From Candidatus Yonathbacteria bacterium RIFCSPLOWO2_01_FULL_43_27 (lineage in GTDB: Bacteria > Patescibacteriota > Minisyncoccia > Phycocordibacterales > UBA1550), in the NCBI GenBank assembly GCA_001823545.1, contig MHUV01000006.1:91437-142524 (forward strand): a stretch of 51,088 nt of DNA, written 5' to 3'. Each line of letters starts with the position of its first letter. Positions within the stretch are counted from its first letter, which is position 1. Of the stretch, positions 6,392 to 50,984 are shown piece after piece. The position numbers were made by a program, and so were the translations under genes. The notes beneath the pieces were generated by a model, which ran no database searches, had not been told where the DNA came from, and worked only from the letters and a program-made list of their open reading frames with translations.

Positions 6392-6422
6392 AAAACCGAG
6401 CGTTAGGGCTCGGTTCTTTGTT
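6392..6422. terminator. Hairpin terminator downstream of ftsE (minus-strand gene)
   Basis: AACCGAGCGTTAGGGCTCGGTT. Confidence 0.6.
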
Positions 6423-6453
6423 GACGAATTTTATTCGTCGTGTTTAGAGAAAA

Positions 6454-7134
6454 CTACAACGCGTATTTTCCTGTTGGGTCGTCGCGGGTGACACGGCCGT
6501 GATCCATCGTGATCACTCGTTTTCCGAGAGATTCTACGACGCCTTTATTGTGGGTCGTTAAGATAACCGTCGTACCGAGGTCATTAATCTTTTTCAATAT
6601 CTGAATAATTTCGTACGTATTCACGGGATCAAGGTTGCCCGTAGGTTCGTCAGCCACGATAACATCGGGATGATTGATGATTGCGCGTGCGATAGCAACA
6701 CGCTGAAGCTCTCCTCCAGAAAGCTGGCGAGGAAAATTCCACATCTTTTTTGTTAAGTCCACGAGCTCGAGCACGTGGGGAACATCAGACGCAATATCTG
6801 TATCTGGCTTTCCCGCAACCTCCATCGCAAACGCCACATTTTCGTACGCGGTTTTGTTGGGAAGAAGGCGAAAATCTTGAAAGATAATACCGATCCTGCG
6901 ACGAAGCTCGGGCATATCCTTTTTCTTTATTTTTTTGATATCGATTGAGTCGATGGAAACGGTTCCATTTGTTGCCTGTTCTTCACCGAGAAGTAGTTTT
7001 GTGAGGGTAGTCTTGCCAGCGCCTGAATGTCCCACGATAGACACAAATTCTCCTTCTTTTATTGCAAAGGTGACACCATCGAGCGCCATCGTGCCATCGG
7101 GATATGTTTTCGAGACGTTATCAAAGTAAATCAT
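6454..7134 (-). CDS. ftsE: Cell division ATP-binding protein FtsE
   Basis: 226-aa ABC ATPase with FtsE-like organisation (MIYFDNVSKTYPDGTMALDGV, IGIIFQDFRLLPNKTAYENVAFAMEV). Confidence 0.85.
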   Translation of the reverse strand: MIYFDNVSKTYPDGTMALDGVTFAIKEGEFVSIVGHSGAGKTTLTKLLLGEEQATNGTVSIDSIDIKKIKKKDMPELRRRIGIIFQDFRLLPNKTAYENVAFAMEVAGKPDTDIASDVPHVLELVDLTKKMWNFPRQLSGGELQRVAIARAIINHPDVIVADEPTGNLDPVNTYEIIQILKKINDLGTTVILTTHNKGVVESLGKRVITMDHGRVTRDDPTGKYAL

Positions 7135-24546: not shown

Positions 24547-24858
24547 GTGCGGGATACGAGACGCTACGCTATCTCACTCGTCGCTACGCTCCTCTTTAGA
24601 AACCCACGGTTTCTAACACTCGCTTCGCTCGCTGTTTTCCTCCACGGGGAACTCCCGTTCCCCGACCCCCTCCCGAGTTCGATTCTCGTATTCCGCACCA
24701 AAAAAACCTATGGTTTTTTGTGCGGAATACGAGAATCTGTCACGAGTTACTAAGTGTGCTCGGGCGAGTACGCCCTGTGCGCACTAAGTACTCTCGACCC
24801 CGCCTCAGCGACCCGCGTTGCGGGTACCCGCTTCCGGCCTTCGATTCTCGTATTCCGC
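24547..24858. repeat. tRNA-Gly 3'-half echo array
   Basis: Partial copies of the tRNA-Gly T-arm/acceptor in both orientations: GAGTTCGATTCTCGTATTCCGCAC (24675-24698), GTGCGGAATACGAGAATC (24720-24737), TTCGATTCTCGTATTCCGC (24840-24858), plus diverged TGCGGGATACGAGA (24547-24560). Confidence 0.85.
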
Positions 24859-24905
24859 GACAAAACATAATCACAAAACTCTTCTCGTTTTGCTCATTGT
24901 TTTTG

Positions 24906-24976
24906 TGCGGAATACGAGAATCGAACTCGTGTCTACTGCTTGGGAAGCAGTCATTCTACCACTAAATTAATTCCGC
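24906..24976 (-). tRNA. tRNA-Gly (anticodon CCC)
   Basis: GCGGAAT acceptor, loop TTCCCAA, T-arm GAGTTCGATTCTC; CCA not encoded. Confidence 0.93.
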
Positions 24977-28219: not shown

Positions 28220-29896
28220 CTATATCTCCTCCCGTTCAGGAACCACGACGCCAGATTTCCAGAACTTATTAAAGAGTGCGGCGCGAACTTCCTTGATATC
28301 CGTATTATTCATTAACTCAAGAATACACCACCACGCAAAAAGCCCCGCAACACCACCTGCAAGCCCCTGCAGAAAGATACCCCAGAATGTGTCGAGGTTG
28401 AGGTAAAGTCCAAACACTTCCAAAAATTCATACGCAACAATTCCTGCCATAAGAGCAGAAAACAAACCCTGAATGAGTGTTTTCTTGAGCGGTGAAAGAA
28501 TTGACCCAAAGCGTTTACGGAAAAGATAGACAAGAAGAAGGGTATTAAAAAACATACCAATAGAATATGCGAGCGGGAGCATCAATACTTCGGCGCCAGA
28601 CAAACTCTCTACGCGAAAAAGAGCAGTAATAAAATCTTGAAGAAAAACCGAGTGCTCAAACCATACCAAAAGACCGTACCCGCCCAAAATAATGATTACC
28701 GCAGATAAGGTATTCGCAATGAGCGGGATTTTATTATCCCCCGTCGCATAGAACCCACGCACGAAGAGAAGTCCAAGTGACTGCATCACAATAGAGAGCG
28801 TAAAGAGTGCGAGAGTTGCTGCCGTTAATCTCGTTGCCGTCCAATCAAATGAACCTGAACCAAGGATTACGCGCACGATCTGCGCACGAAGCACAATCAA
28901 GAGTACGAGTGCCGGAAGTGACCAAAAAATAATTGATTTCGCCGCACGAATAATTTGTTCAATAAATTTACCCATTTCATCACTCGCAAAATGTCGCGAA
29001 AGTGCTGGAAACGCTGCCGTCGCATACGAAACGCCAATGAGCGCAAGGGGTACTGACTGAAGATTGAGCGCAAAATTAAACACGGTCACCGATCCTTCAC
29101 TCATTCTTGCCGCCAGGACCACCAATGCCGAAAGGGCAACCTGGTTCACCGAAAGTCCAATCGTACGAGGGAGCGAAACACGGATAACTTCCCCAATGTC
29201 AGAAAACGAAGGCCTGAGTGACGCCATCAATGAAAATCCATTGCGTGAACTCACAAAAAAGTGAACAAAGAAATGAAGGAATGCACCAAGCACCACGCCC
29301 CCCGCGAGTCCTACGAGCCCAAATGCCGGATAGAAAAATATTGCACCGACAATAATACCTAAATTGTACAGCACTGGCGCAATAGAAAGTGCGAGAAACT
29401 TATGGAGCATTTGTGTAACACTCCCCAAAAGATTTGAAAGACTAAATAAAATTGGTGAAAGGAGGAGGATGCGTGTAACGAGTACGAGTTCATTAAGTGC
29501 TTGCCCCTCAAACGAAGGGAATAAAAACGGCGTAAGCCATGGAATGGCAAAGAAGAGCCCCGCACTCACCACAAGGAGTACAAAGAAAAAGAATGTAAAC
29601 ACGCCATTCAAAAACTTTTGCGCATGTTCATCGCTCTCCATCGCATATTTTGTAAGGATAGGAATAATGACGAGCGCTGACATAAATGAACCCACAATAG
29701 CAAACACAAAATCGGGAATACGAAATGCTGCATAATAAATATCGAGCGTACCACTCGCGCCAAAGGAGTGTGCCAACAACCGGTCTCGAAACAATGCAAC
29801 AATTTGTGAAAGAAACGTGAAGAGGGCGATCAAGATTGCTGCTTCGTGGAGACCACGCCATTCACGATTGAGAAGTGAGAAAAGTTTTTTTACCAT
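28220..29896 (-). CDS. murJ: Lipid II flippase MurJ/MviN
   Basis: Multi-TM, FLSQIVALFRDRLLAHSFG, DIYYAAFRIPDF; start trimmed to MVKKLF. Confidence 0.9.
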   Translation of the reverse strand: MVKKLFSLLNREWRGLHEAAILIALFTFLSQIVALFRDRLLAHSFGASGTLDIYYAAFRIPDFVFAIVGSFMSALVIIPILTKYAMESDEHAQKFLNGVFTFFFFVLLVVSAGLFFAIPWLTPFLFPSFEGQALNELVLVTRILLLSPILFSLSNLLGSVTQMLHKFLALSIAPVLYNLGIIVGAIFFYPAFGLVGLAGGVVLGAFLHFFVHFFVSSRNGFSLMASLRPSFSDIGEVIRVSLPRTIGLSVNQVALSALVVLAARMSEGSVTVFNFALNLQSVPLALIGVSYATAAFPALSRHFASDEMGKFIEQIIRAAKSIIFWSLPALVLLIVLRAQIVRVILGSGSFDWTATRLTAATLALFTLSIVMQSLGLLFVRGFYATGDNKIPLIANTLSAVIIILGGYGLLVWFEHSVFLQDFITALFRVESLSGAEVLMLPLAYSIGMFFNTLLLVYLFRKRFGSILSPLKKTLIQGLFSALMAGIVAYEFLEVFGLYLNLDTFWGIFLQGLAGGVAGLFAWWCILELMNNTDIKEVRAALFNKFWKSGVVVPEREEI

Positions 29897-29967
29897 ACTA
29901 CGAGAATATCTATAGAGTATACTCGCGAAACGAACCTCATGCAAACATATGTATTAGTGATTCTACT

Positions 29968-30015
29968 CCATCATCGACGTATAATATACTATAGTATATT
30001 ATACGTCGATGATGG
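29968..30015. repeat. Perfect 48-bp palindrome
   Basis: CCATCATCGACGTATAATATACTA + exact reverse complement TAGTATATTATACGTCGATGATGG. Confidence 0.95.
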
Positions 30016-30109: not shown

Positions 30110-30142
30110 CATATGGTCTGTATCGATAAGCCGAATTCTGTA

Positions 30143-30199
30143 CCCCCCACCAATTTTGTTTCCAAATAAAGAGCACTTGGAAACAAAATTGGTGGGGGG
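30143..30199. repeat. 57-bp hairpin insertion in rnpB sharing the element terminus
   Basis: CCCCCCACCAATTTTGTTTCCAA (30143-30165) / TTGGAAACAAAATTGGTGGGGGG (30177-30199), perfect 23-bp stem. Confidence 0.95.
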
Positions 30200-30249
30200 C
30201 GATGACCATTTATCTAGGTGATGAGTTACCCCATCACTCAAGCGGCACT

Positions 30250-30533
30250 CCCCCCACCAATTTTATGCACTAAATCAATCCAATTCGCTTTTTGATCTGA
30301 TAGTATGATTGACCAAACTTTTTTATTGATCTTTCTCTCACTATCGCCAATTGCGAAGTTTCATATGCTTCATAGTAGATAAGTTTAAAAGGACGTCTTG
30401 CCTTGGTTGAGATGGACTTGCCGTCGTTATGTTCCTTAAATCTTTTTTTGAGATCTTCGGTTTGGCCAACATACAAGTCGTCATCTTTTAAACTTTTCAA
30501 AATGTAAACATAATGCATAAAATTGGTGGGGGG
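30250..30533 (-). mobile_element. 284-bp TIR-bounded GIY-YIG element inside rnpB
   Basis: Perfect 20-bp TIRs CCCCCCACCAATTTTATGCA (30250-30269) / TGCATAAAATTGGTGGGGGG (30514-30533) enclosing a single ORF. Confidence 0.85.
30270..30518 (-). CDS. Small GIY-YIG nuclease domain protein (COG2827-like), 82 aa
   Basis: MHYVYILKSLKDDDLYVGQTEDLKKRFKEHNDG...RPFKLIYYEAYETSQLAIVRERSIKKF; ATG inside the TIR, TAG abutting the other TIR. Confidence 0.9.
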   Translation of the reverse strand: MHYVYILKSLKDDDLYVGQTEDLKKRFKEHNDGKSISTKARRPFKLIYYEAYETSQLAIVRERSIKKFGQSYYQIKKRIGLI

Positions 30534-30693
30534 CACGGCCTTGCATTCAGATAAGGATTTAGCCGTTTCACTCCCTGCATCACTGCAAGGACTCATCTGT
30601 AGAAAAATCTACAGATGCCCTCCACTTTCGCTCGGGGCGTCTCTGCTCGCACCTCTCGGATTACTCCGGACGGGTGTTACCCGCTACCCTTCT

Positions 30694-30828
30694 CCCCGCA
30701 CCTACTTTGCTATCGTTGTCTTTGTGCCAATATATTATCAACACAACCTTTTAGAATTGAACCTACGCAACTTCGTTAATATCACTAAACGAAACAACGC
30801 TGGGCACAATAGCAAAGTAGGTGCGGGG
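30694..30828. repeat. 135-bp stem-forming insertion in rnpB between P5 and P7 (P5.1-like position)
   Basis: CCCCGCACCTACTTTGCTAT (30694-30713) / ATAGCAAAGTAGGTGCGGGG (30809-30828), perfect 20-bp arms; interior extra pairings. Confidence 0.85.
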
Positions 30829-30991
30829 GAATGTTCGGACTTTCCTCCCTTGTTTTCACAAGGGCAGTCACCTAATACAGGCACATACTATTATAGCACA
30901 TTTTTGACAAAAATGGAAGGGTTATGCATTTAGACCAGAAAACCCAATCACCGTATCAATAATTGGGTTTTCTGTAATCTAACTTAGACCC

Positions 30992-38967: not shown

Positions 38968-39210
38968 TTCAAGTCCTCTCCTGCGCTACAAAACGTAAAG
39001 GGCGAAACGTGTACACAGGAGAGGACTTTGTCACGAATATTTTGCTCGTCGTCACTCGCAGGAGAGGACTTTGCCAAGCGCTCTCTCGTCGTCGACACTC
39101 CTCGTTCCGCTCGGCCCTACTCACGCGACCCATCGTACTCGATGGGTACCCCGCGCTCGCTTTCAAGTCCTCTCCTGCGCTACAAAACGTAAAGGGCGAA
39201 ACGTGTACAC
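38968..39210. repeat. tRNA-Leu 3'-half echo array
   Basis: Identical 49-nt direct copies TTCAAGTCCTCTCCTGCGCTACAAAACGTAAAGGGCGAAACGTGTACAC at 38968-39016 and 39162-39210; AGGAGAGGACTTT copies at ~39018 and ~39061 in the opposite orientation. Confidence 0.9.
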
Positions 39211-39228
39211 GTTTCGCCCTTCGTTTTG

Positions 39229-39312
39229 TGCGCAGGAGAGGACTTGAACCTCCATACCCTTGCGAGTGCTACCACCTCAAGGTAGTGCGTCTACCAGTTT
39301 CGCCACCTGCGC
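39229..39312 (-). tRNA. tRNA-Leu (anticodon GAG)
   Basis: GCGCAGGTGGCGAAACTGGTAGACGCACTACCTTGAGGTGGTAG...GGTTCAAGTCCTCTCCTGCGCA, long variable arm; CCA not encoded. Confidence 0.95.
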
Positions 39313-41091: not shown

Positions 41092-41164
41092 GGGCGATTA
41101 GCTCAGTTGGTAGAGCAACTCATTTACACTGAGAAGGTCGGGGGTTCAAGTCCCTCATCGCCCA
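41092..41164 (+). tRNA. tRNA-Val (anticodon TAC)
   Basis: GGGCGATTAGCTCAGTTGGTAGAGCAACTCATTTACACTGAGAAGGTCGGGGGTTCAAGTCCCTCATCGCCCA; CCA not encoded. Confidence 0.96.
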
Positions 41165-41211
41165 CAAACATTAGGCCACAATGCAAAGCATTGGGGCCTT
41201 TTTGTTTGTGC

Positions 41212-41735
41212 GGGCGATGAGGGACTTGAACCGAGGGCGCGCGAAGCCGGACTACTGTCCGAGCGCCCGAGTGGGGGTCGAGCGAGTGAGGTTTTTGTGA
41301 GTTTGAAAAACGAAGCAAAAACCCACGAGAGTGACCAAGTCCCTCATGTTTTTGTAAGGCGATGAGGGACTTGAAAACGAGTACGGGGTACCCATCGAGC
41401 ACGATGGGTCGCACGAGTAGGGCCGAGAAATTTTTTGGTGCGACGGCGACAAAAAATGTTCTTGGCCAGGCCCCCTCGCCCACAAGTATTTCCGTCTTTT
41501 TGTTTGTGCGGACGATGAGGGACTTGAAAGCCGGAGGCGGGTGAGAAAGCGAAAACTTGGAGCTTTCGCAAGGCCGGAGCGCGACGGCGCGAGGAGGGGT
41601 CGCGGGATTTTTCAGTAGAAAAATACCTGTGACCCCTGAGTACTCGAAGGGTCGCCGAGGCCGGGTCGGGAGTACTTAGTAGATTTCGAGCAACGCGAAG
41701 AAATATACTCAGTAACTCGTGACCAAGTCCCGCAC
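41212..41735. repeat. tRNA-Val 3'-half echo array
   Basis: Inverted copies (GG)GCGATGAGGGACTTGAA at 41212, 41359 and 41512 (one mismatch) and direct partial copies GACCAAGTCCCTCAT (~41333) and GACCAAGTCCCGCA (~41721), separated by GC-rich modules. Confidence 0.9.
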
Positions 41736-50945: not shown

Positions 50946-50984
50946 CCCCCCACCTATTTTTACAAAGTAAAAATAGGTGGGGGG
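50946..50984. repeat. Hairpin related to the rnpB-inserted element terminus
   Basis: CCCCCCACCTATTTTTAC AAA GTAAAAATAGGTGGGGGG, perfect 18-bp stem; shares CCCCCCACC-ATTTT with the rnpB inserts. Confidence 0.9.

Follow-up and report, generated by a model that had tools for sequence, protein, structure and literature searches.

The RNase P RNA gene (rnpB) of Candidatus Yonathbacteria bacterium RIFCSPLOWO2_01_FULL_43_27 is interrupted by a small nuclease gene lying between inverted repeats, and the question that this locus raises is whether the interruption is a peculiarity of one gene or a copy of a mobile element, and how an essential RNA could accommodate it. The window analysed here is the whole 51,088-nucleotide stretch of this genome (G000) that contains the locus, and its features are collected in Table 1. 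The 284-bp unit has as its ends the inverted repeat CCCCCCACCAATTTTATGCA, perfect over 20 bp (23 nt at 96%), and its sole ORF encodes a GIY-YIG protein of 82 aa; the initial annotation had described both correctly to the base, and the ORF coordinates confirm that the ATG lies within one repeat and the TAG abuts the other. No perfect inverted repeat with arms of at least 14 occurred in 10 Markov-shuffled windows. When folded, the rnpB insert forms a long stem from its terminal inverted repeats (TIRs; z = -7.6), and since the start codon sits inside this stem, a closed stem should restrict translation. The unit leaves no space for a promoter of its own and presumably rides on rnpB transcription.

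Table 1. Features of the window, with positions counted from its first nucleotide
Feature	Position	Strand	Basis or remark
rnpB (RNase P RNA, class A) with three inverted-repeat inserts	30113..30885	-	RF00010 match, conserved blocks
GIY-YIG/TIR element, 284 bp, replacing the P17-position hairpin	30250..30533	-	same-genus empty sites
TIR at ORF-start side, including the ATG	30514..30533		inverted-repeat scan
TIR at ORF-stop side, touching the TAG	30250..30269		inverted-repeat scan
GIY-YIG nuclease ORF, 82 aa, including stop codon (30272-30270)	30270..30518	-	Pfam PF01541, E = 8.5e-17; family-invariant residues
ORF-less palindromic hairpin, 57 bp, between P2 and P4 3' strands (P19 position)	30143..30199		23-bp perfect arms
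ORF-less inverted-repeat insert, 135 bp, between P5 and P7	30694..30828		arms CCCCGCACCTACTTTGCTATCGT, 23-nt at 96%
Palindrome, 39 bp, CCCCCCACCTATTTTTAC..GTAAAAATAGGTGGGGGG, putative 16S rRNA 3' trailer, beside contig end	50946..50984		comparison with G046

Rfam model RF00010 matched the host gene at positions 30111-30748 of the minus strand (E = 8.9e-10) in an alignment where the element, a large insert, separates GCAAGGCCGUG from AGUGCCGCUUGAG, in agreement with its earlier assignment to the P15-P17 region; the helix names used for the inserts are presumptive and follow from knowledge of RNase P RNA and from the Rfam alignment. The match scored below the gathering threshold (39 vs 100 bits) because the gene contains three inverted-repeat inserts. 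The initial annotation had recognized only one of these, the GIY-YIG unit, which is real, and had overlooked the other two as well as a further insert probably located in the 16S rRNA trailer. Diverged RNase P RNAs of CPR genomes have been reported to be missed by models (PMC8172020). The conserved blocks GAGGAAAGTCCG, GTAGCGGGTAAC, GCAAGGCCGT, GTGCCGCT, AGATAAATG and ACAGAATTCGGCTTA are all present, the core is approximately 82% identical to same-genus rnpB sequences, equal to the level among the other members, and the 5' end of the gene probably lies near 30885, as judged from P1 pairing. RF00010 returned a single match, and hence no second rnpB, in the whole genome (0.74 Mb, 99.6% complete). 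The host rnpB gene is alive. No Rfam match to a group I or group II intron was obtained in rnpB, although one group I intron was detected at another locus, L121, and matches of the hairpins to miRNA families were attributed to chance, as any long palindrome gives them.

Comparison with related genomes revealed both filled and empty versions of the P17 site. At least seven genomes of the same genus (G002, G005, G006, G009, G011, G012 and G014) carry a native hairpin of 16-20 nt between GTG/A and A/GGT, which bears out the earlier suggestion that the TIR stem replaces a natural helix, whereas in G000, G004, G008 and G015 this hairpin is wholly gone and a GIY-YIG/TIR unit stands at P17. The insert is thus patchily distributed within the genus; G046, which belongs to another family, carries a GIY-YIG/TIR unit at the identical P17 junction, and the same junctions recur in independent assemblies. 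Palindromes without an ORF occupy the P17 position in G135, G048, G057 and G041. At rnpB P3, the outer TIR bases could correspond to native P3 base pairs. Separately, other long AT-rich repeats (AAGTTAAAAGT-like) were observed at the P17 position of rnpB in G003, G007, G010, G029 and G059, indicating that several unrelated repeat types use the P17 loop.

The ORF-less inserts are related to the GIY-YIG units through their ends. In G000 the 15-bp end CCCCCCACCAATTTT is identical (15/15) in the GIY-YIG unit and the 57-bp hairpin, and hairpin and unit ends likewise agree at 15/15 bases in G008. The 135-bp insert has a related end, CCCCGCACCTACTTT, with its best TIR match (10 nt) in L113, a GIY-YIG element in a Saccharibacterium rnpB. 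The palindrome at 50946-50984 displays the same kind of end as the rnpB inserts and has a flank conserved in the genus; it probably lies in the 16S rRNA trailer, because G046 has a similar hairpin in its 16S trailer followed by the same GAACGGAACAAAA sequence. Hairpins without an ORF but sharing the ends of GIY-YIG units were found in G000, G008, G046, G047, G048 and G135, those of G047 matching the TIR of L142, a tRNA-type unit, at 13-15 bases, and those of G046, G048 and G135 matching L119 at 12-15 bases. These hairpins alone possess the attributes of a MITE, being short, devoid of ORFs and equipped with ends as in an autonomous element. A strict gapped palindrome pattern applied to 197 genomes detected hairpins in only 4 of them, since the ends vary too much for a single pattern, and matched only rnpB, a 16S trailer and two leaders in G048. 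In the latter genome, an identical ORF-less hairpin is present in two similar leaders (L090 181-260 and L093 1495-1568), which we take from the downstream ORFs to belong to the genes of ribosomal proteins S4 and L6; the leader common to both looks structured and had no match to a relevant Rfam family.

The picture of an isolated oddity did not hold: the unit belongs to a family with members in numerous Patescibacteria phyla, at rRNA and tRNA sites as well as in rnpB and between genes. Homologues at E <= 1e-8 were detected in 138 of 197 genomes of the order, and most of the best 30 order-level homologues are single ORFs with TIRs, located in rnpB, in 16S helix 6 and at other places. From 85,462 species genomes that were scanned, 80 loci were retrieved, nearly all of them in Patescibacteria. 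These loci were picked by similarity to the query and are not a random sample, so that percentages refer to close homologues only; a TIR score of at least 11 was obtained for 63 of the 79 usable loci, as compared to 5 of 336 similar-sized other ORFs of the same loci, with the remaining 16 homologues lacking detectable TIRs, and TIRs were also present in 14 of 20 further copies. With site classes assigned partly from flank motifs, the 83 distinct TIR-bearing units map to rnpB (P3, P5/7 and P17; 14 units), 23S (7) and 16S (4) rRNA, tRNA 5' ends (13), tRNA 3' ends (2), tmRNA (1) and elsewhere (42). The single-ORF units span approximately 300 bp (about 270-320) and encode proteins of ~82-88 aa between TIRs of 12-23 bp, and in structured RNA genes the ORF is in the sense orientation to the host RNA except in one case, L160. 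Against mobility, the initial annotation would have counted purely vertical descent or a second rnpB; what was found is a patchy distribution in the genus, relatives at many sites and a single rnpB.

A second GIY-YIG gene in G000 (G000:C5 ~6402-6669, corresponding to L009 1493-1760) lies between GTATGCCCTATTTT and AAAATAGGGCATAC in a 268-bp unit; its start codon and first codons belong to the repeat, and L206 (G041) has the same end. Related GIY-YIG genes, some of them with TIRs, were also noted in L153, L157, L162 and L163, on contigs labelled Elusimicrobia, Margulisiibacteriota and Phycisphaerae, for which transfer out of Patescibacteria and binning error are suggested alternatives. Carriage by phages was discarded, as only two distant matches occurred in viral contigs, and so was a defence system, for which PADLOC gives only weak partial matches.

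Many of the units bear the marks of insertion. Direct repeats of at least 4 bp were found at the ends of 23 of 76 units, versus 1.7% of mismatched flank pairs. Their distribution depends on the site: target duplications were present in 15 of 42 units outside known RNA genes, among them intergenic and start-codon insertions, and in none of the 25 in rnpB or rRNA (Fisher p = 5e-4), including the G000 rnpB unit; the other 27 elements outside known RNA genes show no clear target duplication. At tRNA 5' ends, 8 of 13 units have one. In L084 (G123), TGAA flanks the unit on both sides, and the target GTATGAAAATCC is uninterrupted in two genomes of the same genus, G046 and G172, which confirms this one junction. 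Upstream of this empty site, L185 (G046) presents an ORF-less imperfect inverted repeat of ~106 bp (ATCCGCC..GGCGGAT) that is absent there in G123 and G172. In L104 an ORF is split by a unit with TTTA on both sides, and the joined flanks form one open frame, which we take by recognition to resemble a YdeI/OmdA-type protein. The units at tRNA 5' ends have a left flank that retains a copy of tRNA nucleotides 1-9 and a TIR end, GGGGC, that rebuilds the acceptor strand, so that ARAGORN still detects the tRNA as intact.

The encoded proteins retain the GIY-YIG key residues and are under purifying selection. Y3/Y5, Y16, G18, R26, H30 and E62 are family-invariant, and dN/dS ranged from 0.03 to 0.15 in the eight within-lineage pairs where it was estimable, with synonymous sites saturated in five pairs. 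The nearest solved structures are those of UPF0213 BH0048 (1e-13), SLX1 (3e-4) and I-TevI (0.014). In a phylogeny of 105 proteins, lineages associated with rnpB P17, 16S helix 6 and tRNA 5' ends cross candidate phyla, a clustering by site that none of 500 shuffles reproduced. In addition, a promiscuous lineage with TIR ACCCCCACACCT places proteins that are 78-89% identical at unrelated sites (L071, L115, L117, L120 and L129). The G000 protein is divergent and, apart from the remaining rnpB-P17 proteins, groups weakly (support 80) with TIR-less ones. Identity between copies of the same genome is only 36-57%, and recent transposition bursts were not seen in the genomes compared; this divergence indicates that copy numbers are low and that spread seems to occur chiefly from one genome to another.

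We consider it probable that these units constitute a Patescibacteria family of minimal mobile elements, composed of a lone GIY-YIG gene between TIRs, in which the nuclease cuts paired or hairpin ends and the ORF-less forms are MITE-like derivatives. The ends would be recognized as paired or hairpin DNA, and it would be the GIY-YIG protein that moves the unit, acting on cruciform or hairpin structures and cutting both at the ends and at the target. Insertions outside RNA genes would be accompanied by target duplications of 4-5 bp. Within the rnpB, 16S and 23S genes, the unit would settle at a stem-loop with its TIR duplex replacing the native hairpin, and the host RNA would on this proposal still fold; RNase III might nick the TIR stem, and the insert would be kept in the RNase P RNA, or trimmed by RNase III, with no loss of function. 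The ORF-less palindromes would represent non-autonomous derivatives that occupy two further rnpB helix positions and presumably the 16S trailer. SLX1 cuts stem-loop and branched DNA, which suggests it as a possible model for a lone GIY-YIG domain acting on hairpin ends. The cuts of known GIY-YIG homing enzymes leave short 3' overhangs, so that the 4-5-bp duplications are not directly explained.

The initial annotation had proposed a mobile or homing element, and homing remains a live rival, albeit one that we regard as somewhat unlikely. Under site-specific homing, empty alleles would be cut and then acquire the unit through donor-templated repair, and the sole importance of the repeats would be to form an RNA stem with which the host RNA stays functional. 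The lineages clustered by site (P17, 16S helix 6 and tRNA 5' ends), the patchy distribution within the genus, the absence of target duplications in rnpB and rRNA units and the identity of the GTG|..|AGT junctions in different families all agree with this scenario. Yet intergenic copies, which have no use for an RNA stem, possess equally good TIRs, and the ends are common to ORF-less hairpins; furthermore, the 4-5-bp duplications and the presence of close relatives at dispersed sites argue for transposition-like insertion as well. The element shares the catalytic domain and key residues of GIY-YIG homing endonucleases (I-TevI, I-BmoI) and of single-domain UPF0213/YhbQ-type proteins, but differs from the homing endonucleases in having neither an intron or intein nor a separate DNA-binding domain, and in being bounded by TIRs at many target sites. 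Homing genes are characterized by a self-splicing intron or intein, or by one cognate site; here, no intron match was obtained at rnpB and the sites are many and unrelated.

It is unlikely that the unit is a MITE-like passenger, in which another enzyme, such as a RAYT/Y1 or DDE transposase, would move the palindromic unit with the GIY-YIG gene as cargo. Genes matching Y1_Tnp occur in 7 of 12 genomes tested, with four copies in G000, and the hairpins are REP-like in size. As in REP elements and their RAYT transposases (PMC3733652), short palindromic repeats can here be transcribed as hairpins, but the rnpB hairpins lack the GTAG tag, those near the G000 RAYT genes lack the CCCCCCACC end, and elements or hairpins occur with no Y1_Tnp match in G015, G046, G135, G101 and G058, RAYT genes being absent from several element-carrying genomes. 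A full IS1595 match was obtained in G048 only. Both IS1595 and RAYT were thus rejected as the mover for their inconsistency across carriers. Moreover, it is the GIY-YIG gene that forms the constant part of the unit, under strong selection. The unit resembles insertion sequences and DNA transposons in having TIRs, but no recognised transposase (DDE, HUH, tyrosine or serine) was found within its 284 bp.

We deem it improbable that the unit is of the intervening-sequence type, that is, an RNA-level passenger excised by RNase III, whose inheritance would be mainly vertical apart from sporadic transfer of entire rRNA or rnpB regions. A long perfect stem, such as the one in the fold of the rnpB insert, is a good RNase III substrate, the ORF runs in the sense of the host RNA, and known 23S rRNA intervening sequences also contain an ORF within a stem of paired ends in an RNA gene. 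In contrast to the latter, the units encode a GIY-YIG protein and not the 23S IVP protein, and they occur at tRNA and rnpB sites too, as well as, with target duplications, between and within protein-coding genes; the intergenic and start-codon insertions, the one insertion within a protein gene and the patchiness within a single genus speak against RNA-level passage. A dead rnpB copy or an assembly artefact, which could account for the RF00010 score under gathering, is extremely improbable and already largely refuted by the lone rnpB of a 99.6% complete genome, its full set of core blocks and the recurrence of its junctions across assemblies.

The earlier statement that no equivalent has been described holds only in part. 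GIY-YIG ORFs in CPR 16S and 23S rRNA genes, within insertions matching neither group I nor group II introns, were catalogued in 2024 as sparse, seemingly outside homing and mostly at the top or base of stem-loops, according to the accessible portion of that study (PMC11270868), in which inverted repeats and target duplications are not described and the terms 'inverted repeat', 'RNase P' and 'tRNA' are absent. The rRNA members identified here are very probably the same insertions. In the literature outside subscription journals, no described equivalent of TIR-bounded GIY-YIG units was found under inverted repeats, MITE or target-site duplication. SLX1-type nucleases, whose GIY-YIG domain is related by sequence, are cellular repair enzymes with a partner subunit and are not mobile. 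The small mobile repeats of cyanobacterial rnpB and the Rickettsia palindromic elements are likewise tiny repeats inserting into RNA genes, and to our knowledge no autonomous GIY-YIG partner has been described for either.

Each known kind of element departs from the family in at least one of the defining features tested, and we tentatively raise the possibility that it represents a class of prokaryotic element not recognised before: a single-domain GIY-YIG nuclease, presumed to act in movement, would be its only mobility protein, working on paired repeats and exchanging the hairpin of an RNA gene for its own, with essential RNAs as safe harbours that evolve new helices. If so, these units, at ~300 bp and mostly coding, would rank with the smallest autonomous mobile elements known, and GIY-YIG nucleases would acquire a transposase-like role. 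They may also explain why Patescibacteria RNase P and rRNA genes are over-long, odd and poorly scored by standard models, and would offer selfish DNA a testable route to add or replace helices in essential RNAs while the host survives.

Two other repeat arrangements were observed in the window. The palindrome CCATCATCGACGTATAATATACTA, 48 bp long and perfect, with 24-bp arms and no loop, lies at 29968-30015, between the 3' end of rnpB and a 574-aa ORF (28220-29944), and is not of the CCCC-ended type. At 24666-24930, 38968-39248 and 41143-41528, tRNA 3'-end sequence (e.g. TTCAAGTCCTCTCCTGCGC) recurs in clusters of direct and inverted copies beside three tRNA genes, possibly representing another small repeat that targets tRNA.
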